A DNA stretch of 64,000 bases from Flavobacterium sp. SUN046. GTDB lineage: Bacteria > Bacteroidota > Bacteroidia > Flavobacteriales > Flavobacteriaceae. A program made the translations under genes and the position numbers. Below the pieces are notes generated by a model. It worked only from the letters and a program-made list of their open reading frames with translations. It did not search any database and was not told the DNA's origin. Numbering within the stretch: position 1 is the first letter of the stretch; each line of letters begins with the position of its first letter. Positions 34,627 through 49,723 of the stretch are shown here, in pieces. The DNA lies in the NCBI RefSeq assembly GCF_028867965.1, contig NZ_JAPQNT010000008.1, positions 1 through 64,000 on the forward strand. Reading direction: 5' to 3'.

Positions 34627-37600
34627 CTAATTAAAAACAATTTTTCTTGTAGTTTCACCTTTGTCTGTTTTTACTTTTACAATGTAAGTTCCAGAACTCA
34701 AGTTTTTGATAGGCAATTGAATGTTGTCTTGGCTTTGATTTTTTACATCAAAAGTTGAAACCAATTGTCCTAACATATTAAAAAGTGACACTTTTTCTAC
34801 CGTGGTATCTACCACATTATTTTTTATTCCTAATGTATTTGTTCCATTTGCGTATGCTATTATAATTCCGTTATTCAAATTAAAAGCATCATTTGCAAGC
34901 AATGAATGGTTGTCTTTAAAGGTCAACGAGAATCTGTTATCTGTCAATCCTATTGGAAGTTCTACTATCCAAGGTTGGTTAGTAATTTCGTGATAAACAC
35001 CGTCTGTATTGTCTAAGATGAATAATTTTTGGTTAGCATCTAAGTTTTCAGTAGTATCTACCATTATTTTAACTTCACCTGTTACATTTGTTTTAATTCC
35101 GATTGGATATACATTATTCGGATTGAAAAATCCTTCACCTTGAATGTTAAGTTTAGCACCACTGTTCATGAAATACATATCATTAGGTTGGTTGTCAAAA
35201 TTTGGTGCATCATATCCAAAATCAATTGCACTTGTTGCATTTTGTTCCATAAATCCTAATAGAATTTGACGGTGGTAATTGTCTTTAGAAGTTAATCCTA
35301 AACGAACTCTTTTATAAACATCTTCAGAAAAATTGTCTTCAGAGTTATCATTAAAGTGATCAACAACTAACATGTTAGCACTTCTAAACAATGTGTTAGA
35401 GCTTGCATTATCTTCTTTAACAAACGCTCTTTGATCATTATTGAAAGATACTGTTCCACCAGTAGCTGAACCAACAATAAAGAAACCTTGACTTACAGGA
35501 ATGAATCTTCCAGGTACTTTTGTACTAGCACCAACACCATTAATTCCGGCTGGAGCAGTAGGAGGAGTTCCACCTGTTAAGTTTCTAACAGAGTATCCAC
35601 CTTGATAATTAACTAATACGTGAGTATTGTTAGTACTTGAGTGTTCCCAGAAATATAAATTACCTGTTGTTGAAGCACTGTTGGCTGATATGAAAGCATT
35701 AGCATCAATTGAAGACGCATAAGGATTTCCAGCTAAGTTCAAGTTTCCTGCAGCTACTGTTGTTGTTATTGGACCATTATTAGGTTTACCAACAAAAGTA
35801 TAATTTTGATTTGATGCTGCTGAACCACTACCTTTTAATGTAAACCCTTGAGCTGCATTTAAAGTTCCGTTTTGTCCTGCACTTGCCCAATTTGCATAGC
35901 TGTTACTTAAATTTTGGAATTTGAATATCCAATAGCTGCTTAATGTCACTGGACTTGTTGGGCTTCCGTTTAATCCAGTTGTCCAAGTAATATTTTGTGG
36001 CGTACTAGTTGTACCATCTTTCATAACACTAGCAACAGTAAATGTATTGTTGTTAGTAGTATTATTAATAGCTCCAACAGGTGATGACCAATAGTTATAG
36101 TTATAAATGTTTTTAGTTCCTTGTTGATCTCTTTCTAATGAACCTGCGCTTGTTGCATCTAAATCACTGTTTATTGTTTGAATTAATTGAGATTTACCTT
36201 GTAAGTCAATTTTTCCGTCTAATTTTAAGTAATGTGATACTTCAACTTTAGAATCGTTAGATGCGCTTAGAGTATTTGAATTTACAAATAAGCCTAATAC
36301 CACTTTATTACCATTAGAATCAATATTGTGTAACGTTCTAACTATGTTCCAATCAATTGGCGTTGTACCATTAACAATTGATAAACTGTAAGGTAAATCT
36401 TGAGTTCCGCCATTAGCCCATGAAGCAGTTGATGCCCAAGAACCATTTGCAGCACTTATGTAAGGCATTGGTGCCGTTTGTGAATTGATAGATATTTTAT
36501 TTGGTATAATTAAACTACCTCTGTGAAGATTACCTGAGTCGTCATCAAGATGCGTTCCAATGTAAGAGTTCATTGAGTAGTATGCGAATAGGTTAGACCA
36601 TAATAATGAATTTACATCATTTTTAGTTACTGTTGTTGGAATAATTGTTCCTTTAGTTCCAGTTCCATTTTGAAGAATTTCTTGGTTTAATAAGAAACGT
36701 ATTTCAGTAGGTGATAACACTCTGCTCCACATTCTTAATTCGTCAATATCGCCTTTAAATAAGTTATTAATTGTTGTTTTATTTACATAATTAGAGCCAA
36801 TACTAAAGATACTTGTTGATGCCGTTGGAGGCACTAAAATTGTAGCTGACTTGTCTAGAACTCCATCGATGTACATACTTAAAGTACTACCGCTAGTGTA
36901 AGTAACCGCTATGTTATGCCACTTTTGGTCTGGAAATGGCGTGTTAGTAACAGTACTATATGTTACACCAAGAACAGTCCATTCCATTCTTACTCTATTA
37001 TCAGCTTGTAATACTAATTTATATCCACCTAGTGCGTCAGCTTTTTTAGAAACTATTACTCTTTCATCTGCCAAAGTATTGTTTCCATTTGGTCTAATCC
37101 AAGTCATTACAGTAAAGTTTGGACTTAACTCATTAGAATCGGATATTCTTACATAATCATCAATACCATCAAGGCTAATGTGTAGTGGGTTGGTTGCTCT
37201 GTGTGCAACACCAAAAGTGAAATATCTTGTGCCATCAAAGTCGTATAATAAAGTTTGATTTGCTCCAGAGGTTGTCATAAAAACAGTTTCAAGGCTACTT
37301 GTAAAAGCTGCATCATCTGCAATAATCATTACATAAGCATCTGTTGGTCCTAGAGCTGGTAATCCACTAACAAATGCTGCTGTTGGAATTGAAACTCTTG
37401 TTGTTGGAACATCTCCACCAGTTTCAACTATTTTCCATCTTCTGTTTACGATTTCAGTAAAGGTAGTTACAGTTGTTGGTCCTAAATTGATTGTAAATGG
37501 TGTTCCAGTATTAGTCATTGCTCCACCATTAGAACCCCAAACTAGGTAATTTCTATTTGTAGGAAATGTATTTGTATTTGTATCGTTAGTACTTAATATA

Positions 37601-39174
37601 TCGGTTAGACCAATAGTCATAACTTCAGTAGTGTTAATGCTTTTAGACTGTTTTTGTGAATGTTGTGATGCATCATCTCTAAAGATTCCCGCAATATCAA
37701 AATTATATCCAGTGTTCGTAGTTGAATTCCATACTACATTACCGTTAGAATCTTCGTAATTCATTGAAGTACCATTTACTCCTAATGTTATTCCATATTT
37801 TAAAGCTAAATAGGTTTCTATTCTTCTTCTTTCGGTTACATCATTTTTTCTGCTAGAGAAAGAAATTACTTCTGCAATTCTTCCACCAAAACTTCCATTC
37901 CACACTTGACTTCTTCCAAGCCAGTATCTTCTATTAGCAACATTTGCAAATTGCGGTTGTCCTACCTCAGTATTATCAATTCTATTTGCATTAAAATAAA
38001 TTTCTTGACCATTGATAGCGGCATTATTTCTAGCACTTAAAATACTTATCGCATTGGAATAGTTTTTGGTTGTGCTAACTTCTGCCACGCCATAACCTCT
38101 TAAATTGATAGCAGGATTTGGTGTTGGACTTGAACCTATACAATAACTTACAATTTCATTATCCATTCTAATAGTATATTTTCCATACCCAAAACCTGTA
38201 CCATCATTATCCCAAGGATTTATATTTTGGGAACAATAAATATCGGTACTTGGTGTTGTTGCATCATAAGTTGATGGTGTATCGTTAACTATAACTAAAT
38301 ACTGCTCGTTAGTAAAAAAACCTCCTGTTCCGTTCAATTCTGCTTGATTGGTCAAACCTGTAAAATCTGATATTCCACTGGTTGCCGGGTTGTTATTAAA
38401 ATAGACTACTGGATTAAAATTAATATTGTCTGTAGTATTATTTTTAAATTTTGGTCTATTGTTTAAACTAGCATTTGAAGGGTCAATAACCGTTGCGTCA
38501 TTTCCTTTTCCAATATCTTCCCATCGGTCTACGTTAGTATTGTCTGTGCCAACACCAGTACCATTTACTTTATCTGCTCTCAACCAAGTTTCAAGGTTAG
38601 CTGTAACTCCTCCCGGACCATTTGAAATAGTGTTGAATGTTGTTCCTATTATGCTAACATTATCTAAGTAAATAAATCTACTAGAATTACCTATAACTGC
38701 AACAAATTGAAATTGTCCTACTGGAGAAAAAGTTGAAGTAGTAGAAAATAAAGTTGCATAGAAGGCATAATAAGTATTGTTGACTCTAATATCTTTTGTT
38801 GCATCAACTGTGTAAGTTCTTATTGTAGTCCATGCAGCAAGTGTTGACGATCTATATTGCAATGCTATAGATTCACCTGTATTAGCAGCAGTTCTAACAA
38901 AAAATTTAACATCTATCTTATTGTAAGGAAGAATATTAATTCCAGACGTTGGAGTAGTTAACGTCATGTTAGTAGTTCCTCTAAATCTACAAGCGTTACT
39001 TCCTTGATAAGGTGCAGTTCCGTCTTGCGCAACATTTGATCCTCCAGGAGTCCAAATACCTAATCCTGATTCAAAGGTTGTAGAATTAATAACTGTTTGT
39101 GCAAAGTTTTTTATTGGTATTAACAAAAATACCATGATAAAAAAAGTTGATTTAATTAAGGTAAAATTTTTCAT
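34627..39174 (-). CDS. Giant T9SS surface protein with LamG-like domain (1,515 aa)
   Basis: The protein has a signal peptide (FFIMVFLLIPIKNFAQ) and an N-terminal beta-sandwich-like part (FESGLGIWTPGG ... NACRFRG). A region at ~445-465 reads NDVTERRRIETYLALKYG, a mark of a flavobacterial surface domain (DUF8202 type, from memory). A LamG/concanavalin-like domain lies at ~665-850 (LDGIDDYVRISD ... WHNIAVTYTSGSTLSMYIDG, seen as WHNIAVTYTSG). It ends in a T9SS type A sorting domain (LFNMLGQLVSTFDVK ... GTYIVKVKTDKGE). No catalytic site is evident, so an adhesin or matrix-binding role is likely. Its promoter region has the same architecture as that of the giant carboxypeptidase gene. Confidence 0.85.
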   Translation of the reverse strand: MKNFTLIKSTFFIMVFLLIPIKNFAQTVINSTTFESGLGIWTPGGSNVAQDGTAPYQGSNACRFRGTTNMTLTTPTSGINILPYNKIDVKFFVRTAANTGESIALQYRSSTLAAWTTIRTYTVDATKDIRVNNTYYAFYATLFSTTSTFSPVGQFQFVAVIGNSSRFIYLDNVSIIGTTFNTISNGPGGVTANLETWLRADKVNGTGVGTDNTNVDRWEDIGKGNDATVIDPSNASLNNRPKFKNNTTDNINFNPVVYFNNNPATSGISDFTGLTNQAELNGTGGFFTNEQYLVIVNDTPSTYDATTPSTDIYCSQNINPWDNDGTGFGYGKYTIRMDNEIVSYCIGSSPTPNPAINLRGYGVAEVSTTKNYSNAISILSARNNAAINGQEIYFNANRIDNTEVGQPQFANVANRRYWLGRSQVWNGSFGGRIAEVISFSSRKNDVTERRRIETYLALKYGITLGVNGTSMNYEDSNGNVVWNSTTNTGYNFDIAGIFRDDASQHSQKQSKSINTTEVMTIGLTDILSTNDTNTNTFPTNRNYLVWGSNGGAMTNTGTPFTINLGPTTVTTFTEIVNRRWKIVETGGDVPTTRVSIPTAAFVSGLPALGPTDAYVMIIADDAAFTSSLETVFMTTSGANQTLLYDFDGTRYFTFGVAHRATNPLHISLDGIDDYVRISDSNELSPNFTVMTWIRPNGNNTLADERVIVSKKADALGGYKLVLQADNRVRMEWTVLGVTYSTVTNTPFPDQKWHNIAVTYTSGSTLSMYIDGVLDKSATILVPPTASTSIFSIGSNYVNKTTINNLFKGDIDELRMWSRVLSPTEIRFLLNQEILQNGTGTKGTIIPTTVTKNDVNSLLWSNLFAYYSMNSYIGTHLDDDSGNLHRGSLIIPNKISINSQTAPMPYISAANGSWASTASWANGGTQDLPYSLSIVNGTTPIDWNIVRTLHNIDSNGNKVVLGLFVNSNTLSASNDSKVEVSHYLKLDGKIDLQGKSQLIQTINSDLDATSAGSLERDQQGTKNIYNYNYWSSPVGAINNTTNNNTFTVASVMKDGTTSTPQNITWTTGLNGSPTSPVTLSSYWIFKFQNLSNSYANWASAGQNGTLNAAQGFTLKGSGSAASNQNYTFVGKPNNGPITTTVAAGNLNLAGNPYASSIDANAFISANSASTTGNLYFWEHSSTNNTHVLVNYQGGYSVRNLTGGTPPTAPAGINGVGASTKVPGRFIPVSQGFFIVGSATGGTVSFNNDQRAFVKEDNASSNTLFRSANMLVVDHFNDNSEDNFSEDVYKRVRLGLTSKDNYHRQILLGFMEQNATSAIDFGYDAPNFDNQPNDMYFMNSGAKLNIQGEGFFNPNNVYPIGIKTNVTGEVKIMVDTTENLDANQKLFILDNTDGVYHEITNQPWIVELPIGLTDNRFSLTFKDNHSLLANDAFNLNNGIIIAYANGTNTLGIKNNVVDTTVEKVSLFNMLGQLVSTFDVKNQSQDNIQLPIKNLSSGTYIVKVKTDKGETTRKIVFN

Positions 39175-39288: not shown

Positions 39289-39327
39289 ATCGATAAAATA
39301 CATATAAAATCGATTAAATGCATTTAT
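39289..39327 (-). promoter_or_regulatory. Two ATCGAT-centred dyads, 20 bp apart (copy at the LamG-like gene)
   Basis: ATCGAT occurs at 39289-39294 and 39309-39314 with flanks resembling CATTTAATCGATTAAATG. The 19-bp stretch 39309-39327 is identical to 49686-49704 at the other giant gene. The proximal ATCGAT begins 31 bp from the -7 box in both. The rest of the 348-bp gap 39175-39522 is AT-rich with only the terminator at 39470. Confidence 0.65.
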
Positions 39328-39522: not shown

Positions 39523-42500
39523 TTATCTTTTTACGATTCTAATAGTTTTAGTTATTTCTCCTTGAATAAAAATTATTGAATAAACTCCGCTTGGATAGGA
39601 TGATCCTATCGATGTTGACTCTAAATCTCTTGATTCAAATTGTTTACTTTCTATTAATCTTCCCATTAAATCATAAACTGAGATACTAATTTTGTCATCT
39701 GAGGTTAAATCAGCTTTAATATTGAAGCTATCATTAAAAGGATTAGGATAAACCGTAACCGTAGTAAGTTGTTGTTTACTAGTACTAGTTGTTGTAAAAT
39801 TTGCTACCGTTGCATTTCCGCCTTTTACAATAGTACACGTTTGATTATATGGGCCAAAGTCATTTTGATTAGACATTTTAACACATACTTGAACATAATA
39901 GGTTCCTGGTGCTGTTAATCCAGGGAAATTACTTAATGTAAATCGGTTAGTTGCGCTATCAAAAGTAGCATCATATCCAGAATTATTATACAATCTAAAC
40001 CTGTATGATACAGCTCCTGAAACAGCATCAGCGTAGATAAGCTCGCTATTGCTTGTTACAGCATAATTACTACATTGATTAGATTTTAATTGAGTAGTAG
40101 GATGAGCTGGAGTTTTAATAATACAACCTGGTCCTTCTGGTAAATAAGTTCCATCAGTATTTCTCAATGCAGTTCTTACAAAATAATTAGTTCCATAAGT
40201 TTGATTTGAAACTTGCAGTTGACTCAAATTGAATTTACTCATAGTAGAATAAATATATTGAGTTTGATTATTAAATTGATTAGTTACTTCATATCGGTAA
40301 CCCGTTATATTTGCAACAGTGTTCACATTTACATATTGACTAAATGATGTTAATGTAGTTCCACATTGGTTAGTAATAACTGTTGTTGGAGAAGGTGTCG
40401 TTACATAACATGGATTTCCGTAAAAACCTTGCCAAACTCCGTTAAATTTTACTGCAATCTCAACTTTATATTGTGTTGCAAAAGTAACTCCAGGTAAATT
40501 TGAAAATTGAAACGAAACGGTTGGACTGTCAACTGTTTGAACAGCCATCGTTATCATATTTGTAATTCTAAATCTAAATCCTTGAGCTCCAGGTGAATTT
40601 GAAGCAGTTATAATTGTATTTAATGCAGTGATAGTACCACCACAAGTTGCAGTTGGTAAATTACTAATTTTTGGAGTACAACCACCAGGCAATCCAACAT
40701 TGTCGATATTTCCATTACAGTCATTATCTATTCCATCATAGCAAATATCAACGGCTCCAGGATGTACCGCAGTTTTTGTATCATCACAATCTAAACTATT
40801 AGTAACATATCCAGCAGGTTGCGTACAAGAAGATATCGTAACACTAAGATTACCAAATCCGTCACCATCAGCATCTTGATAATAAGTTGTCAAAGCATTT
40901 TGAGTAGTACTATTATCATTACAATCTAAATTATTAGTCACATATCCAGCAGGTTGTGAACAAGCTTGAGTAGAAACATTTGGATTACCAAAAGTATCAC
41001 CATCTAAATCTTGATAGAAGGTAATTAATACATTTTGTGATGCATTGTTGTCGTTGCAATCTGTATTGTTAGTTACACCACAAGCAACTTGAGTTAAAGA
41101 ACCGTAACCGTCTCCATCAACATCAGCGTATTGAATTTGGTTATCATTACAATCCGTTGCATTAGTAACATATCCAGCAGGTTGTGAACAAGCTTGAATC
41201 GTAGCATTTGGATTACCGAAAGTATCTCCGTCTAAATCTTGATAGAAGGTAATTAATACATTTTGTGATGCATTGTTATCGTTACAATCTGTAGCATTAG
41301 TAACATATCCAGCAGGTTGTGAACAAGCTTGAATAGTAACATTTGGATTACCGAAAGTATCTCCGTCTAAATCTTGATAGAACGTAATTAATATATTTTG
41401 TGATGCATTATTGTCGTTACAATCTGTATTATTTGTTACACCACAAGCAACTTGAGTTAAAGAACCGTAACCGTCTCCATCAACATCAGCGTATTGAATT
41501 TGGTTATCATTACAATCTGTTGCATTAGTAACATATCCTGCAGGTTGTGAACAAGCTTGAGTAGAAACATTTGGATTACCAAAAGTATCACCATCTAAAT
41601 CTTGGTAAAACGTGATTAATACATTTTGTGATGCATTGTTATCGTTACAATCTGTATTATTTGCAACACCACAAGCTACTTTAGTTGAAGAACCGTAACC
41701 GTCTCCATCAATATCAGCGTATTGAATTTGGTTATCATTACAATCAGAAGAATTTAAAACATATCCAACTGGTTGTGAACAAGCTTGAATTGAAGCATTT
41801 GGATTACCAAAAGTATCACCATCTAAATCTTGGTAGAAAGTTAAAATAGCTCCACCATTAGTAACTTCAATATTTTGTGTTTGAGTTGAGGTGTTTCCAT
41901 TTCCATCGTCATATGTCCAAGTTACAATGTAATTTCCTTGTATACTATATGTTGTAGGGTCATTTGTAGTTCCTGTAATAGTTCCAGAGCAGTTGTCTGT
42001 TGCAGTTGGAGCTGTAACTGTAGCTGAACATTGACCAGTAATAGTTGCAAGCGAAGCTACGTTAGCAACTGGCGCAGTAGTATCATTTATTACAACTGAT
42101 TGTGTTTGAGTTGAAGTATTTCCTTTAGCATCCGTATAAGTCCAAGTAATAGAATACGTTCCTTGAGCAGAATACGTTAAAGGATCATTTGTAGTTCCAG
42201 TAATTTGACCTGAACAATTATCTGTAGCAGTTGGCGCAGTAAGTGCAACCGAACATTGACCAGTAACCGTAGCAAGTGAAGCTACATTAGCCACAGGCGC
42301 AGTAGTATCATTTACAACAACTGATTGTGTTTGAGTAGATGAATTTCCTTTAGCGTCAGTATAGGTCCAAGTTACAGTTGCTGAAGCTGTCACTGGAGAA
42401 ACTGTAGTAGTTGTTCCAGTAATTTGACCCGAACAATTATCTGTAGCAGTTGGCGCAGTAAGGGCAACCGAACATTGACCATTCAACGTTGGAAGTGAAG

Positions 42501-45500
42501 CTACATTAGCCACTGGCGCAGTAGTATCATTGATTACAACTGATTGTGTTTGAGTAGAAACATTTCCTTTAGCGTCAGTATATGTCCAAGTTACCGTTGT
42601 TGAAGCTGTCACTGGAGAAACTGTAGTAGTTGTTGCAGTAATTTGACCTGAACAATTATCTGTAGCAGTTGGCGCAGTAAGTGCAACTGAACATTGACCA
42701 TTTAAAGTTGGAAGCGAAGCTACATTAGCCACTGGCGCAGTAGTATCATTTACTATAACTGATTGTGTTTGAGTAGATGCATTTCCTTTAGCGTCAGTAT
42801 AAGTCCAAGTAATAGAATACGTTCCTTGAGCAGAATACGTTAAAGGAGAAGTTGTAGTTCCAGTAATAGTTCCAGAGCAGTTGTCTGTTGCTGTTGGAGC
42901 TGTAACTGTAGCTGAACATTGACCAGTAACAGTTGGAAGCGAAGCTACATTAGCCACTGGCGCAGTAGTATCATTTACAACAACTGATTGTGTTTGAGTA
43001 GAAACATTTCCTTTAGCGTCAGTATATGTCCAAGTTACCGTTGTTGAAGCTGTCACTGGAGAAACTGTAGTAGTTGTTGCAGTAATTTGACCTGAACAAT
43101 TATCTGTAGCAGTTGGCGAAGTAAGTGCAACTGAACATTGACCATTTAAAGTTGGAAGCGAAGCTACATTAGCCACTGGCGCAGTAGTGTCATTTACTAT
43201 AACTGATTGTGTTTGAGTTGAGGTATTTCCTTTAGCGTCAGTATAAGTCCAAGTAATAGAATACGTTCCTTGAGCAGAATACGTTAAAGGAGAAGTTGTA
43301 GTTCCAGTAATAGTTCCAGAGCAATTATCTGTAGCTGTTGGAGCTGTAACTGTAGCTGAACATTGACCAGTAACCGTAGCAAGTGAAGCTACATTAGCCA
43401 CTGGCGCAGTAGTATCATTTACAACAACTGATTGCGTTTGAGTTGAAGTATTTCCTTTCGCATCAGTATACGTCCAAGTTACCGTTGTTGAAGCTGTCAC
43501 TGGAGAAACTGTAGTAGTTGTTGCAGTAATTTGACCTGAACAATTATCTGTAGCAGTTGGCGCAGTAAGTGCAACCGAACATTGACCAGTAACCGTAGCA
43601 AGTGAAGCTACATTAGCCACAGGCGCAGTAGTATCATTTACAACAACTGATTGTGTTTGAGTTGAAGCATTTCCTTTCGCATCAGTATAGGTCCAAGTTA
43701 CCGTTGTTGAAGCTGTCACTGGAGAAACTGTGGTAGTTGTTGCAGTAATTTGACCTGAACAATTATCTGTAGCAGTTGGCGCAGTAAGTGCAACCGAACA
43801 TTGACCATTTAAAGTTGGAAGCGAAGCTACATTAGCTACTGGCGCAGTAGTATCATTTACAACAACTGATTGTGTTTGAGTTGAGGCATTTCCTTTAGCG
43901 TCAGTATAAGTCCAGGTAATAGAATACGTTCCTTGAGCAGAATACGTTAAAGGCGATGTTGTAGTTCCAGTAATAGTTCCAGAGCAGTTGTCTGTTGCTG
44001 TTGGAGCCGTAACAGTAGCTGAACATTGTCCAGTAATAGTTGGTAAAGAGGCTACGTTTGCCACTGGCGCAGTAGTATCATTTACAACAACTGATTGCGT
44101 TTGAGTTGAGGCATTTCCTTTAGCATCAGTATACGTCCAAGTTACCGTTGTTGAAGCTGTCACTGGAGAAACTGTAGTAGTTGTTGCAGTAATTTGACCT
44201 GAACAATTATCTGTAGCAGTTGGCGCAGTAAGTTCAACCGAACATTGACCATTTAAAGTTGGAAGCGAAGCTACATTAGCTACTGGCGCAGTAGTATCAT
44301 TTACTATAACTGATTGAGTTTGAGTTGAAGTATTTCCTTTCGCATCAGTATACGTCCAAGTTACCGTTGTTGAAGCTGTCACTGGAGAAACTGTAGTAGT
44401 TGTTGCAGTAATTTGACCTGAACAATTATCTGTAGCAGTTGGCGCAGTAAGTTCAACCGAACATTGACCATTTAAAGTTGGAAGCGAAGCTACATTAGCT
44501 ACTGGCGCAGTAGTATCATTTACTATAACTGATTGAGTTTGAGTTGAAGCATTTCCTTTCGTATCAGTATAGGTCCAAGTAATAGAATATGTTCCTTGTG
44601 CATTATACGTTAAAGGAGAAGTTGTAGTTCCAGTAATAGTTCCAGAGCAGTTGTCTGTTGCTGTTGGAGCTGTAACTGTAGCTGAACATTGACCAGTAAC
44701 AGTTGGAAGCGAAGCTACATTAGCCACTGGCGCAGTAGTATCATTTACAACAACTGATTGTGTTTGAGTTGAGGCATTTCCTTTAGCATCAGTATAGGTC
44801 CAAGTAATAGAATACGTTCCTTGTGCATTATACGTTAAAGGAGAAGTTGTAGTTCCAGTAATAGTTCCAGAGCAATTATCTGTAGCAGTTGGCGCCGTAA
44901 CTGTAGCTGAACATTGACCAGTAACCGCAGCAAGCGAAGCCACATTAGCCACTGGCGCAGTAGTATCATTGATTACAACTGATTGTGTTTGAGTAGAAAC
45001 ATTTCCTTTAGCGTCAGTATAAGTCCAAGTAATAGAATACGTTCCTTGAGCAGAATACGTTAAAGGAGAAGTTGTAGTTCCAGTAATAGTTCCAGAGCAG
45101 TTGTCTGTTGCTGTTGGAGCTGTAACTGTAGCTGAACATTGACCAGTAACAGTTGGAAGCGAAGCTACATTAGCCACTGGCGCAGTAGTATCATTTACAA
45201 CAACTGATTGCGTTTGAGTTGAAGTATTTCCTTTCGCATCAGTATACGTCCAAGTTACCGTTGTTGAAGCTGTCACTGGAGAAACTGTAGTAGTTGTTGC
45301 AGTAATTTGACCTGAACAATTATCTGTAGCAGTTGGCGCAGTAAGTTCAACCGAACATTGACCATTTAAAGTTGGAAGCGAAGCTACGTTAGCTACTGGC
45401 GCAGTAGTATCATTTACTATAACTGATTGTGTTTGAGTAGATGCATTTCCTTTAGCGTCAGTATAAGTCCAAGTAATAGAATACGTTCCTTGAGCAGAAT

Positions 45501-48500
45501 ACGTTAAAGGAGAAGTTGTAGTTCCAGTAATAGTTCCAGAGCAGTTGTCTGTTGCTGTTGGAGCTGTAACTGTAGCTGAACATTGACCAGTAACAGTTGG
45601 AAGCGAAGCTACATTAGCCACTGGCGCAGTAGTATCATTTACAACAACTGATTGTGTTTGAGTTGAGGCATTTCCTTTAGCATCAGTATACGTCCAAGTT
45701 ACCGTTGTTGAAGCTGTCACTGGAGAAACTGTAGTAGTTGTTGCAGTAATTTGACCTGAACAATTATCTGTAGCAGTTGGCGCAGTAAGTGCAACCGAAC
45801 ATTGACCATTTAAAGTTGGAAGCGAAGCTACATTAGCCACTGGCGCAGTAGTATCATTTACAACAACTGATTGTGTTTGAGTTGAGGCATTTCCTTTAGC
45901 ATCAGTATAGGTCCAAGTAATAGAATATGTTCCTTGTGCATTATACGTTAAAGGAGAAGTTGTAGTTCCAGTAATAGTTCCAGAGCAATTATCTGTAGCT
46001 GTTGGCGCCGTAACTGTAGCTGAACATTGACCAGTAACCGCAGCAAGCGAAGCCACATTAGCCACTGGCGCAGTAGTATCATTGATTACAACTGATTGTG
46101 TTTGAGTTGAGGTATTTCCTTTAGCGTCAGTATAGGTCCAAGTAATAGAATACGTTCCTTGAGCATTATAAGTTAGAGGAGAATTTGTAGTTCCAGTAAT
46201 AGTTCCAGAGCAATTATCTGTAGCTGTTGGAGCTGTAACTGTAGCTGAACATTGACCAGTAACAGTAGCAAGCGAAGCTACGTTAGCCACAGGCGCAGTA
46301 GTATCATTGATTACAACTGATTGTGTTTGAGTTGAGGTATTTCCTTTAGCATCAGTATAGGTCCAAGTAATAGAATATGTTCCTTGTGCATTATACGTTA
46401 AAGGAGAAGTTGTAGTTCCAGTAATAGTTCCAGAGCAATTATCTGTAGCTGTTGGAGCTGTAACTGTCGCTGAACATTGACCAGTAACAGTAGCAAGCGA
46501 AGCTACATTAGCCACAGGCGCAGTTGTATCATTTACAACAACTGATTGAGATTGAGTTGAGGTATTTCCTTTAGCGTCAGTATAAGTCCAAGTAATAGAA
46601 TAGGTTCCTTGAGTATTATAAGTTAAAGGAGAATTTGTAGTTCCAGTAATAGTTCCAGAGCAATTATCTGTTGCTGTTGGAGCTGTAACTGTAGCTGAAC
46701 ATTGACCAGTAACAGTAGCAAGCGAAGCTACGTTAGCCACAGGCGCAGTAGTATCATTTACAACAACTGATTGAGATTGAAATGATTGATTTCCGCGACT
46801 ATCAGTATACGTCCATACGATAGTGTAATTTCCTTGTGTAGAGTAAGTTAAAGGATCACTTGTTGTTGCATTAATCGTACCCATACAATTATCGGTAGCG
46901 GTTGGCACAGTAACAGTAGCAGAGCATTGTCCTGTAATAGTAGGTAAAGAAGTTACATTTGCAACTGGAGCTACAGTATCCGTTATACTAACTGTTTGAA
47001 ATTGATTAGATACGTTGCCGTTTCCATCATTATAAGTCCAATAAATTTGATAATTTCCTTGAGCAGAATACGTTAAAGGCGATGTTGTAGTTCCAGTAAT
47101 TTGTCCATAGCAATTACTTGTAGCTGTTGGTGGCGTAACAGTAGCTGAACATTGACCAGTAATAGTTGGCAATGAAGCAATGTTTGGAACAGGCGCAGTA
47201 CAAGCAGCTGCAATTGTAAATGTTTGTGATGGTGATACTACTGAATTACAAGTATTAAATATTGTTACTGAAGCTGAACCAGCAGTTGTGACATCAGCAG
47301 CAGTAATTGATGCAGTTAATTGAGTTGCACTTACAAATGTTGTAGTTCTATTTGTTCCATTCCATCTAACTATTGATTCACCGCTTACAAAATTGGTTCC
47401 ATTTACTGTTAATGTAAATGCACCACTTCCTGCAATTTTTGAAGTAGGAGCAATAGAAGCATTGGATGGATTAGGTTTTACAGTAACAATGACTTGATCT
47501 CTATTGCTTTTTATTGGTTCAAATTTCCAATTAAAGAATTGAAAGAATGTACCAGTTCCGCCATTAGCAGTAATGTTTATTGTTCCATTTGTCATCGGAT
47601 AAGTAATTCCGCTTGTAGCACAAGTTAGGCTTAATCCTGATATTTCACGTGAAACTAATCTTAAATTTGTTCCAACAGGAATAAAAAAATCTAATGGGAT
47701 GTCTTGATTTCCTGCAGCAGTTAATCTGATTGCTTTAGATTCTAACATTACTCCAGCACTAGTTTGTAATTCTACTAATATTTGACCAACAGCAGATGTG
47801 GTAATTGAAACTGATTTTAATTTGGTTGGAGTAGTACAACTAAAAATCAAGTATTTATTTGCAACAGTAGCTGCAGCAGTAGCAGTTCCAGAAACAGTTG
47901 CTGGACCTACGTTTGCAATAGCAACCTCGCTTTCTACCCAATAAGATGTAGTAGTTGATAACGCTGGAGTTGTAAAAGCAGCTGTAGAAGCCAAAGCACT
48001 AGTTGAAGTTAAACTGTTGTACCATTTAATAGTTCCTGTTCCTGTAGCTGATAATGAAGCTGTTTGACCTTGGCAAATTGTTGCATCACTTGCAACCGGA
48101 GTAGCTGTAATAGGAACCATAGTAACATTCAAAGTAGTTGCAGCACCATTTGTTAACGTCGTAGATATTGTTTGAGAGGCATATCCCGGAGATTCGAATA
48201 GTACGCTATAAGTTCCTGCAACTTGTACTTTGTGATAATCACCATTTGTAGCAGATGTTTCAACCCAAGAGCCAAAACCATCCGATGTGCCTGATACATA
48301 AACTTTTGCATGTAATGGTTTTCCAGCTTGATCCGTTACAATACCTTGTAAACCATAACTTGCTTGTTTCATAAAGTTTAACAAACTTTGTCTGTTTAAA
48401 GTATAAAATAATGGCAATTGACTTGCTGGAGGAGTTTTAGTTGCAGAAATTTCAATTGTTACTTCTTTATTGTGATTATAAAAATTATTATAATCTTGTC

Positions 48501-49626
48501 TTCCACCTTTTACGGTATACCAAATGGCTCCGTTTGTTGTTCCAGCAAACTGTCCAGTGCCATATACATCATCCATGTAAAGTTGATTGTTATCAGCCGT
48601 TTGAGCAAGTTGTGCATATTCTGTTGAAACTACTCTAAAGTATGCATCATGAGGATGAACATTTACTTGAGAAGTTCCAGTTGCACCATTTGAAGTATCC
48701 CATGGAAAATTTACAACTTCTGCACCACCATGATAATTAGCAGCTAAAACAAAATTTCTAGTAGCTTCAAAATTTAAGAAAGCTAACGTCTCAGCTCTAT
48801 ATACTAATGCATCTGGATGTAATCCTCCAATTGGATCTGGATAATTTCTATTTAAATCGGTACCATCTTGATTGGCTCTCGTTGGTGCATTTCCAGATGA
48901 ATTAAAAATATCATTTCCAGGAGCTTTGTACGAACCATCAGGATTTGCTAATGGACAAAAATACATTTCGGTATTGTTAACTAAATTAGTCAATTCAGTA
49001 TTTGATCCATAACTTGTTAAAAGTTCATCAATTAAATGTAACAAAACAGGATAACCTGTAATTTCGTCACCGTGCATTGAAGAAGTGTATAAAAATTCTG
49101 GTTCAGTTTCATCCGCACTTGCATTATCAGATATTTTTAAAACGTAAAGAGCTCTTCCGTTTGTTGTAGAACCAATATTTTGTAAAGTACAAATGCTTGG
49201 ATAGGTTGTAGCCCAATATTGCATTTTTGCAACATACTCAGAATATTTAGGATAAGCATCCCAAGTTGAATCCCAGGCAGCTGTTGCTCTGTTTGCATTA
49301 GTTGTTCTTGCAGTGAATTCTTGGGGAATTTCATTGTCTTCTTTTCTAACTTCATATTGTAAGCCATAAGTTAAAAACCTTTTAAATTGGTCTTTATTTG
49401 CATAAGCTTCAACTTCTAGTGATTGTTCGTCAACTCTTTTGTGACTTACAGATAAGAATTCATTAAGTTCTAAAAATTGCGCTTTACTACTAGCTTTAAA
49501 ATTTAGGACAACTTCTCCTTTTTCTTTCAAATAATAGTTTGCTTTTTCAAGTGAACTGCCTTTTTGAGCAAACGAAACGCTTGAAAACAAAACAGTTAGC
49601 ATCAGAATAAGTGTAATTTTTTTCAT
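39523..49626 (-). CDS. Giant T9SS protein: M14 carboxypeptidase with HYR-like and MopE-like repeats (3,367 aa)
   Basis: The ATG at 49626 gives a good signal peptide (MKKITLILMLTVLFSSVSFAQ); an upstream frame to 49677 would cross the promoter. A prodomain-like part (~20-110) is followed by an M14 zinc carboxypeptidase (~110-420) with zinc ligands in HGDE (H185, E188) and NYHGG, and the catalytic Glu in EVTIEIS. Next come a carboxypeptidase regulatory-like domain (~423-505), an Ig-like part, an IPT/TIG domain (~726-806), 24 HYR-like repeats (~809-2591) and MopE-type repeats (~2593-2979). Three unknown beta domains with GFRFRI/GYRYEV motifs and a T9SS sorting domain (YPNPFNDSFNIK, last ~75) end the protein. 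It is probably a surface-anchored or released peptidase held on a long stalk. Confidence 0.9.
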   Translation of the reverse strand: MKKITLILMLTVLFSSVSFAQKGSSLEKANYYLKEKGEVVLNFKASSKAQFLELNEFLSVSHKRVDEQSLEVEAYANKDQFKRFLTYGLQYEVRKEDNEIPQEFTARTTNANRATAAWDSTWDAYPKYSEYVAKMQYWATTYPSICTLQNIGSTTNGRALYVLKISDNASADETEPEFLYTSSMHGDEITGYPVLLHLIDELLTSYGSNTELTNLVNNTEMYFCPLANPDGSYKAPGNDIFNSSGNAPTRANQDGTDLNRNYPDPIGGLHPDALVYRAETLAFLNFEATRNFVLAANYHGGAEVVNFPWDTSNGATGTSQVNVHPHDAYFRVVSTEYAQLAQTADNNQLYMDDVYGTGQFAGTTNGAIWYTVKGGRQDYNNFYNHNKEVTIEISATKTPPASQLPLFYTLNRQSLLNFMKQASYGLQGIVTDQAGKPLHAKVYVSGTSDGFGSWVETSATNGDYHKVQVAGTYSVLFESPGYASQTISTTLTNGAATTLNVTMVPITATPVASDATICQGQTASLSATGTGTIKWYNSLTSTSALASTAAFTTPALSTTTSYWVESEVAIANVGPATVSGTATAAATVANKYLIFSCTTPTKLKSVSITTSAVGQILVELQTSAGVMLESKAIRLTAAGNQDIPLDFFIPVGTNLRLVSREISGLSLTCATSGITYPMTNGTINITANGGTGTFFQFFNWKFEPIKSNRDQVIVTVKPNPSNASIAPTSKIAGSGAFTLTVNGTNFVSGESIVRWNGTNRTTTFVSATQLTASITAADVTTAGSASVTIFNTCNSVVSPSQTFTIAAACTAPVPNIASLPTITGQCSATVTPPTATSNCYGQITGTTTSPLTYSAQGNYQIYWTYNDGNGNVSNQFQTVSITDTVAPVANVTSLPTITGQCSATVTVPTATDNCMGTINATTSDPLTYSTQGNYTIVWTYTDSRGNQSFQSQSVVVNDTTAPVANVASLATVTGQCSATVTAPTATDNCSGTITGTTNSPLTYNTQGTYSITWTYTDAKGNTSTQSQSVVVNDTTAPVANVASLATVTGQCSATVTAPTATDNCSGTITGTTTSPLTYNAQGTYSITWTYTDAKGNTSTQTQSVVINDTTAPVANVASLATVTGQCSATVTAPTATDNCSGTITGTTNSPLTYNAQGTYSITWTYTDAKGNTSTQTQSVVINDTTAPVANVASLAAVTGQCSATVTAPTATDNCSGTITGTTTSPLTYNAQGTYSITWTYTDAKGNASTQTQSVVVNDTTAPVANVASLPTLNGQCSVALTAPTATDNCSGQITATTTTVSPVTASTTVTWTYTDAKGNASTQTQSVVVNDTTAPVANVASLPTVTGQCSATVTAPTATDNCSGTITGTTTSPLTYSAQGTYSITWTYTDAKGNASTQTQSVIVNDTTAPVANVASLPTLNGQCSVELTAPTATDNCSGQITATTTTVSPVTASTTVTWTYTDAKGNTSTQTQSVVVNDTTAPVANVASLPTVTGQCSATVTAPTATDNCSGTITGTTTSPLTYSAQGTYSITWTYTDAKGNVSTQTQSVVINDTTAPVANVASLAAVTGQCSATVTAPTATDNCSGTITGTTTSPLTYNAQGTYSITWTYTDAKGNASTQTQSVVVNDTTAPVANVASLPTVTGQCSATVTAPTATDNCSGTITGTTTSPLTYNAQGTYSITWTYTDTKGNASTQTQSVIVNDTTAPVANVASLPTLNGQCSVELTAPTATDNCSGQITATTTTVSPVTASTTVTWTYTDAKGNTSTQTQSVIVNDTTAPVANVASLPTLNGQCSVELTAPTATDNCSGQITATTTTVSPVTASTTVTWTYTDAKGNASTQTQSVVVNDTTAPVANVASLPTITGQCSATVTAPTATDNCSGTITGTTTSPLTYSAQGTYSITWTYTDAKGNASTQTQSVVVNDTTAPVANVASLPTLNGQCSVALTAPTATDNCSGQITATTTTVSPVTASTTVTWTYTDAKGNASTQTQSVVVNDTTAPVANVASLATVTGQCSVALTAPTATDNCSGQITATTTTVSPVTASTTVTWTYTDAKGNTSTQTQSVVVNDTTAPVANVASLATVTGQCSATVTAPTATDNCSGTITGTTTSPLTYSAQGTYSITWTYTDAKGNTSTQTQSVIVNDTTAPVANVASLPTLNGQCSVALTSPTATDNCSGQITATTTTVSPVTASTTVTWTYTDAKGNVSTQTQSVVVNDTTAPVANVASLPTVTGQCSATVTAPTATDNCSGTITGTTTSPLTYSAQGTYSITWTYTDAKGNASTQTQSVIVNDTTAPVANVASLPTLNGQCSVALTAPTATDNCSGQITATTTTVSPVTASTTVTWTYTDAKGNVSTQTQSVVINDTTAPVANVASLPTLNGQCSVALTAPTATDNCSGQITGTTTTVSPVTASATVTWTYTDAKGNSSTQTQSVVVNDTTAPVANVASLATVTGQCSVALTAPTATDNCSGQITGTTNDPLTYSAQGTYSITWTYTDAKGNTSTQTQSVVINDTTAPVANVASLATITGQCSATVTAPTATDNCSGTITGTTNDPTTYSIQGNYIVTWTYDDGNGNTSTQTQNIEVTNGGAILTFYQDLDGDTFGNPNASIQACSQPVGYVLNSSDCNDNQIQYADIDGDGYGSSTKVACGVANNTDCNDNNASQNVLITFYQDLDGDTFGNPNVSTQACSQPAGYVTNATDCNDNQIQYADVDGDGYGSLTQVACGVTNNTDCNDNNASQNILITFYQDLDGDTFGNPNVTIQACSQPAGYVTNATDCNDNNASQNVLITFYQDLDGDTFGNPNATIQACSQPAGYVTNATDCNDNQIQYADVDGDGYGSLTQVACGVTNNTDCNDNNASQNVLITFYQDLDGDTFGNPNVSTQACSQPAGYVTNNLDCNDNSTTQNALTTYYQDADGDGFGNLSVTISSCTQPAGYVTNSLDCDDTKTAVHPGAVDICYDGIDNDCNGNIDNVGLPGGCTPKISNLPTATCGGTITALNTIITASNSPGAQGFRFRITNMITMAVQTVDSPTVSFQFSNLPGVTFATQYKVEIAVKFNGVWQGFYGNPCYVTTPSPTTVITNQCGTTLTSFSQYVNVNTVANITGYRYEVTNQFNNQTQYIYSTMSKFNLSQLQVSNQTYGTNYFVRTALRNTDGTYLPEGPGCIIKTPAHPTTQLKSNQCSNYAVTSNSELIYADAVSGAVSYRFRLYNNSGYDATFDSATNRFTLSNFPGLTAPGTYYVQVCVKMSNQNDFGPYNQTCTIVKGGNATVANFTTTSTSKQQLTTVTVYPNPFNDSFNIKADLTSDDKISISVYDLMGRLIESKQFESRDLESTSIGSSYPSGVYSIIFIQGEITKTIRIVKR
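40690..41850 (-). repeat. MopE-type Asp-rich repeat block in the giant protein
   Basis: The block encodes FYQDLDGDTFGNP-like units five times, one YYQDADGDGFGN, and three interleaved YADIDGDGYGS-type units with ACGV. Each unit closes on DCNDN. It ends in DCDDTKTAVHPGAVD and DGIDNDCNGNID, the canonical MopE form. The many DxDGD loops suggest calcium binding. Neighbouring units are nearly identical in DNA, showing recent duplication. Confidence 0.8.
41855..47200 (-). repeat. Array of 24 HYR-like repeats (about 5.3 kb)
   Basis: There are 24 units beginning APVANVASL. Type A (75 aa, 225 bp) carries TGQCSATVTAPTATDNCSG and SPLTYSAQGTYSITWTYTD; type B (73 aa, 219 bp) carries NGQCSVALT and TTTTVSPVTASTTVTWTY. 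Each has two cysteines (GQC, DNC), probably a disulphide. The order by my reading is A1-6, B7, A8, B9, A10-12, B13-14, A15, B16-17, A18, B19, A20, B21-22, hybrid 23, A24. The outer units 1, 2 and 24 are the most divergent, the inner ones nearly identical. Confidence 0.88.
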
Positions 49627-49647: not shown

Positions 49648-49678
49648 CAAACCTAAATAATACCTAAATTCTGACAAA
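49648..49678 (-). promoter_or_regulatory. Promoter of the giant carboxypeptidase gene
   Basis: On the minus strand a TTTG (49675-49678) and TAGGTTTG (49648-49655) are 19 bp apart, a full consensus pair. The ATG at 49626 lies 21 bp downstream. Confidence 0.75.
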
Positions 49679-49685
49679 ACTTTTT

Positions 49686-49723
49686 ATCGATTAAATGCAT
49701 TTATAATCGATTAAATGTAAATT
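49686..49723 (-). promoter_or_regulatory. Two ATCGAT-centred dyads, 20 bp apart (copy at the giant gene)
   Basis: ATCGAT occurs at 49686-49691 and 49706-49711. The flanks fit CATTTA-ATCGAT-TAAATG. The pair sits just upstream of the -33 box, a position typical of activator sites. The remaining 343-bp gap up to 49969 is AT-rich; I see no clear promoter for the plus-strand gene in it. Confidence 0.65.

Follow-up and report, generated by a model that had tools for sequence, protein, structure and literature searches.

Promoters activated by BvgA in Bordetella carry several binding sites that follow one another at intervals of two turns of the helix and face the same side of the DNA, the nearest of them abutting the -35 region (PMC7250471). 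LytTR-type sites typically comprise two repeats of 9–11 nt with a spacer of 11–13 nt between them; the site bound by YpdB of E. coli is a direct repeat of GGCATTTCAT (PMC4847170). Control of T9SS machine genes is described for PorXY–SigP in Porphyromonas gingivalis (PMC10951265) and for the ECF-type SM6 promoters of F. psychrophilum (PMC9723704), both of which act via an ECF sigma factor; the latter source also gives the TAnnTTTG consensus of F. psychrophilum, with the box at -12 to -5. According to PMC10951265, no information was available for F. johnsoniae on whether a two-component system regulates T9SS, and PMC7807042 states that the regulatory system behind colony spreading was still to be identified.

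The window considered here is the whole stretch of 64,000 nucleotides from Flavobacterium sp. SUN046 (contig NZ_JAPQNT010000008.1, positions 1 to 64,000), in which two giant genes for T9SS cargo proteins are preceded by a tandem element with a period of 20 bp. Its repeats stand two turns apart and end just upstream of the core promoter, an arrangement that matches BvgA-like activators and fits contact with the polymerase, and the leading candidate reader belongs to the same NarL class as BvgA. However, BvgA sites are spaced by 22 bp rather than 20 and consist of inverted heptads bound by head-to-head dimers, whereas the present element is an asymmetric direct repeat. LytTR sites are likewise two direct repeats, and the YpdB repeat resembles the TGCATTTTAT found here, but the LytTR spacer described there measures 11–13 nt, while here the period is 20 and the unit extends into ATCGAT. 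With PorXY–SigP and SM6 the element would share control of T9SS machine genes, although those systems rely on an ECF sigma factor and the present promoters combine a TAnnTTTG core with an upstream operator. No description of the motif or of a named regulator was found in searches of open-licence literature, which agrees with the suspicion of an earlier note on this DNA that the site is perhaps undescribed.

The element is probably a tandem activator operator of sigma-A promoters that coordinates the T9SS machine with its cargo. In the proposed mechanism, a dedicated activator would occupy both copies of TGYATTTHATCGAT, placed with their 20-bp period directly upstream of a sigma-A core promoter, on one face of the DNA; once bound, it would help RNA polymerase to start through contact with the enzyme, and expression of the motor operon of T9SS (gldK) would thereby go together with that of the cargo genes. 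We infer binding, activation, the signal, co-regulation and the transcription start from sequence. The recurrence of the double word across Flavobacterium before gldK and several genes for secreted proteins makes it a probable docking site for a regulator of this secretion system. Standing in front of gldK and of cargo genes in a large number of Flavobacterium genomes, the element proposes a regulon, may be used as bait for the regulator, and makes the question of how flavobacteria control T9SS and gliding directly testable.

Layout of the two window promoters and of the repeat unit

Both promoters are read on the minus strand and contain the following features, in the order of transcription:

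49706..49719, minus strand: distal repeat unit of promoter 1, TACATTTAATCGAT on the gene strand (model R1 match C35:49682-49717, E 6.7e-10)
49686..49699, minus strand: proximal repeat unit of promoter 1, TGCATTTAATCGAT, followed by AAAA
49675..49678, minus strand: TTTG of promoter 1, read from the sequence 19 bp ahead of the -7 box, which we take to be a possible -33 element
49648..49655, minus strand: -7 box of promoter 1, TAGGTTTG, with a predicted transcription start at about 49643
39523..49626, minus strand: gene for a 3367-aa T9SS cargo protein with Peptidase_M14, LapB-type repeats, Por_Secre_tail and a type A sorting domain
39309..39322, minus strand: distal repeat unit of promoter 2, TGCATTTAATCGAT (model R1 match C35:39284-39323, E 6.1e-11)
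39289..39302, minus strand: proximal repeat unit of promoter 2, TGTATTTTATCGAT, followed by AAAA
39251..39258, minus strand: -7 box of promoter 2, TACATTTG, with a predicted transcription start at about 39246
34627..39174, minus strand: gene for a 1515-aa T9SS cargo protein with Laminin_G_3, Por_Secre_tail and a type A sorting domain

The ATCGAT words lie at 49686-49691 and 49706-49711 in promoter 1 and at 39289-39294 and 39309-39314 in promoter 2, so that the pairs 20 bp apart reported by the earlier note are exact to the base; its distance of 31 bp between the end of the TAnnTTTG box and the start of the proximal ATCGAT likewise holds at both promoters. On the gene strand, the double sites read ATTTAATCGATTATAAATGCATTTAATCGATAAAA in promoter 1 and ATTTAATCGATTTTATATGTATTTTATCGATAAAA in promoter 2, with the -7 box equally distant from each. 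This box is in both cases a TAnnTTTG of the Bacteroidota sigma-A type, and if it is set at -12 to -5 the ATCGAT cores are centred at about -45.5 and -65.5 in both promoters; inspection of the -33 position of promoter 2 revealed no TTTG. Both window proteins contain the C-terminal sorting domain TIGR04183 above its cut-off (40.2 and 37.1 bits vs 23). Within the M14 giant gene, a 225-bp unit is repeated about 23 times with 82% matches (window positions 41964-47169) and gives rise to the LapB-type repeats of the protein.

A stretch of 19 bp is indeed identical between the two promoters, although the identity is out of register: a proximal unit in one promoter is matched to a distal unit in the other. 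This is what is expected of copies of one repeated unit and not of a duplicated promoter, and duplication of the promoter was therefore rejected.

The description of the element as two ATCGAT-centred dyads fared less well. The conserved unit is TGYATTTHATCGAT, an asymmetric word with TGY on one side only that forms a direct repeat with a period of 20. In 86 sites, the columns that the search pattern had left free contain G in 78% and C/T in 96% of cases before the first unit, and G in 84% and C/T in 97% before the second. This conservation of TGY in columns that were not asked for indicates that the unit is TGYATTTHATCGAT, repeated directly. The 86 sites were oriented by mismatches alone, with five ties dropped, and this recount gives nearly the same figures as a weight matrix of 92 loci whose orientation was partly chosen by the TGY letters. 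Covariation of the letters flanking the core, as expected of a dyad, is absent at flanks 1–4 of the 86 sites, with weak complementarity at flank 5 (p 0.012–0.016), and it is not significant at flanks 1–5 in a set of 59 sites. Flanks 2–5 are complementary by composition in 59–84% of sites for the proximal unit, which is close to a palindrome, and in 48–71% for the distal unit, the covariation being weak and confined to flank 5. Given this scarce covariation and the asymmetry of the unit, a direct repeat fits better than paired dyads.

Occurrence, downstream genes and phase to the core promoter

The genome that contains the window (3,373,788 bases) has 11 ATCGAT pairs at spacings of 12–42, three of them at a spacing of 20, namely the two window promoters and a third pair inside an ORF. 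A degenerate 35-bp pattern of the double site, searched with up to three mismatches, matches this genome only at the two window promoters, both without mismatches, while a control pattern gave no match in the same search. A looser pattern of 16 bp for the single site is not significant in the window (6 matches vs 2.94 expected; at least 6 in 9 of 100 shuffles), and therefore the strength of the element lies in its pairing. Among 199 Flavobacterium genomes, the 35-bp double site with up to three mismatches was found in 83, compared with 2 for a reversed control. These controls, in the own genome and across the genus, put the equal phasing of the two promoters far beyond chance, as had been supposed.

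The pattern search listed 112 distinct places, 91 of which make up a set of 92 loci (L079 repeats L039), 21 places being left out. Moreover, a sequence-only model, R1, was built from 59 sites chosen partly for having the box, a choice owing to which box counts are quoted first from the set selected by pattern alone. At E up to 0.001, R1 matches 155 of 198 Flavobacterium genomes, with up to 14 matches in one of them, and at E up to 1e-4 its matches within the family extend to 164 of 249 genomes, which represent 159 of 235 genera. The element thus stands before both giant genes as originally described, but it is not confined to them, since it also precedes gldK, an LRR-protein gene and other genes for secreted proteins and occurs in most sampled genera.

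Many of the best Flavobacterium sites stand before gldK, which belongs to the motor operon of T9SS, or before large cargo genes of that system, further targets being an M4 peptidase and DUF5916 proteins. GldK (TIGR03525) itself has matches in all 121 of 121 genomes. From 20 long regions selected among the non-gldK sites of other genomes, 18 complete downstream proteins were obtained, one of which (L151) was dropped for masked bases; the T9SS sorting domain is above cut-off in 13 of the remaining 17 and absent in four. A search of the own genome for tandem sites and the genes behind them, as proposed by the earlier note, gave ten best places by R1 (E up to 0.0054) that are all intergenic, each lying ahead of the gene towards which it is directed. 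They precede the two window giants, the LRR-protein gene, gldK, three genes whose products start in the manner of secreted proteins, the gene of a 74-aa protein and a CAP-domain protein gene present in two copies. The proposed link to surface and secretion genes is supported, and both window genes encode T9SS cargo and share the element with gldK and secreted-protein genes.

Some of these neighbourhoods have features of their own. The LRR-protein gene (L184, 5842-8179, contig C1 of the own genome), with the tandem site in its promoter, lies about 10 kb from gldK, and the next two genes on its strand encode NarL-type response regulators; similar runs of LRR and regulator genes occur in L185 and L189 and are absent in L186, L187 and L192. 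The gene for the 74-aa protein, with the site upstream (L202, 1501-1851; C12:303379 of the own genome), is located beside a similar ORF of 66 aa; this protein has no Pfam or NCBIfam match, and relatives of its gene with the site are found in L023, L075 and L099. The two CAP-domain genes (L204 and L205; C3:1788 and C3:2627 of the own genome) are adjacent and apparently identical, with one repeat upstream of each.

The phase between element and box is conserved across the genus. In 24 of the 92 pattern-chosen loci, TAnnTTTG stands at the same offset of 36 bp, counted from the base with which the proximal ATCGAT begins; these loci comprise 12 gldK loci, seven relatives of the M14 giant, three relatives of the LamG giant and two loci of another secreted-protein family. 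These four downstream families have no mutual BLAST match at 1e-5. Likewise, the box stands at that offset in 28 of 136 unique sites, the next best offset having 5. As orthologs are not independent, the number of families weighs more than the number of sites, and the same offset in four unrelated gene families supports the idea of a common regulatory element that keeps a constant phase relative to a sigma-A type box. Among upstream regions of gldK, 12 of the 29 readable (from 30 loci), including that of the own genome, have the box at offset 36, and 17 are without it at that position. Most of the 12 also have the repeat, L052 having the box without a recognisable repeat, and the gldK promoter of the own genome contains TTGCATTTTATCGATAAAA plus a degenerate distal copy. 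Outside Flavobacterium, the box was found at offset 36 in none of 29 inspected sites, and the downstream genes are mixed, which makes the T9SS reading safe for Flavobacterium only. On the minus strand of L141 (genome G167), neighbouring M14-type genes have tandem sites at 149 and 5473, each at box offset 36, forming a pair parallel to that of the window.

Candidate readers of the element

The leading candidate, put forward tentatively, is a conserved response regulator of the NarL/GerE type, whose gene, near gldB, is flanked by nadE and dnaG:

G000:C1:79415-80041, own genome: NarL-type candidate with receiver and GerE domains

In a GerE search of nine small or incomplete motif-bearing genomes, one NarL-type regulator was common to all, encoded between nadE and dnaG wherever both neighbours were present; by sequence, its best solved relatives are VraR and EvgA. 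All three of gldB, nadE and dnaG are present in 68 of 68 long named loci among the best 80 of 387 matches, the order gldB, nadE, regulator, dnaG having been read by eye in four loci, and the presence of the three neighbours having been tested in the other long ones. A record titled as a Bifidobacterium breve MAG (L363, CALPUN020000005.1) encodes a protein 100% identical to the Flavobacterium query regulator and is therefore probably mislabelled or contaminated.

Across 198 Flavobacterium genomes, the motif was detected in 153 of 174 with the NarL-type regulator vs 2 of 24 without it, and in 148 of 167 with an rpsF-linked LytTR gene vs 7 of 31 without. The cut-offs were E 0.001 for the motif, 1e-25 for the NarL regulator and 1e-50 for LytTR, and the Fisher p values for co-occurrence, 2.6e-15 and 1.9e-13, ignore relatedness. 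The two regulator-negative genomes with motif matches are G039 and G081 (E about 5e-4), and a gldK tree of 70 rows requires at least four changes to explain the absence of the regulator. The most telling single case for the NarL-type candidate is its joint loss with the motif in G026, a 90% complete genome that groups with G069 and the own genome. In the gldK promoter of G026, both the repeat and the box at offset 36 are gone while the leader stays almost the same; another TAnnTTTG, present 8 bp upstream in the own genome too, is retained.

Against this candidate, 21 of the 174 genomes keep the regulator without a detected motif, 15 of them, those aligned, with the same recognition helix, and G028 and G106 keep it although their gldK repeats are lost. 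Moreover, 21 of the 24 genomes without the regulator also lack the rpsF-linked LytTR gene, which indicates strong lineage effects. Weighing the asymmetric direct repeat, the motif-free genomes with the regulator and these lineage effects, we place the NarL-type protein first among several possible readers. Three further ideas were discarded. A changed recognition helix was rejected as the cause of motif loss, since the helix is invariant in 15 aligned motif-negative proteins (59 of 65 proteins were read in this alignment, those missing being G073, G038, G192, G195, G098 and G186). Autoregulation of the candidate is not good evidence either, as only 5 of 30 upstream regions score at least 12, two of the five coming from near-identical genomes and one overlapping the nadE coding sequence. 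Finally, the divergent NarL regulator that G068 has next to its M14 giant was dismissed as a general regulator, with no other match above 39% identity among those listed.

It is conceivable, though slightly more doubtful than its role as reader, that the NarL-type protein near gldB is a master regulator of Flavobacteriaceae that reads the tandem box and sets the T9SS motor and cargo jointly, in which case it would supply the missing transcriptional control of secretion and gliding.

That the same tandem operator is read by another protein, of the AraC family or otherwise, is a serious possibility even if short of an even chance. Activators of the AraC type, too, recognise direct repeats that are spaced by about two turns and adjoin the core promoter, and no tested regulator explains the 21 genomes with the NarL-type regulator and no detected motif; however, the families covered were NarL and LytTR, so that no particular other family is favoured.

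Reading by a LytTR-type response regulator, with two monomers on the direct repeats, seems rather unlikely despite several points in its favour. The gene profiled for this purpose was the rpsF-linked one alone, which is one of nine LytTR matches in the own genome:

C12:169104-169796, own genome: rpsF-linked LytTR gene

The asymmetric direct repeat suits such a reader at least as well as a NarL protein, the YpdB repeat GGCATTTCAT is close to TGCATTTTAT of the double site, the rpsF-linked gene tracks the motif in the counts given above, and a weak model match (E 0.07) adjoins it. Nevertheless, seven genomes, all drafts, have the motif without this gene, G026 keeps the gene without the motif, and the period is 20 rather than 21–23, a 10-nt repeat leaving a spacer of 10.

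There is less room for the idea that the element serves repression, or control of the genes on either side, instead of being a plain activator site. In other genera, the sites of L452, L466 and L471 abut the start codon of a gene that is presumably histidine-phosphatase-like, where repressor sites are typically found, and it is common for sites to lie between divergent genes; in Flavobacterium, by contrast, 24 of 92 loci have the element at a fixed position immediately before the core promoter, as for activators. Chance similarity or a copied promoter, which the AT-rich DNA and the insignificance of the single 16-bp pattern in the window might suggest, is extremely improbable and strongly disfavoured by the control counts in the own genome and the genus, by the fixed phase in unrelated genes and by the out-of-register identity of the 19 bp.
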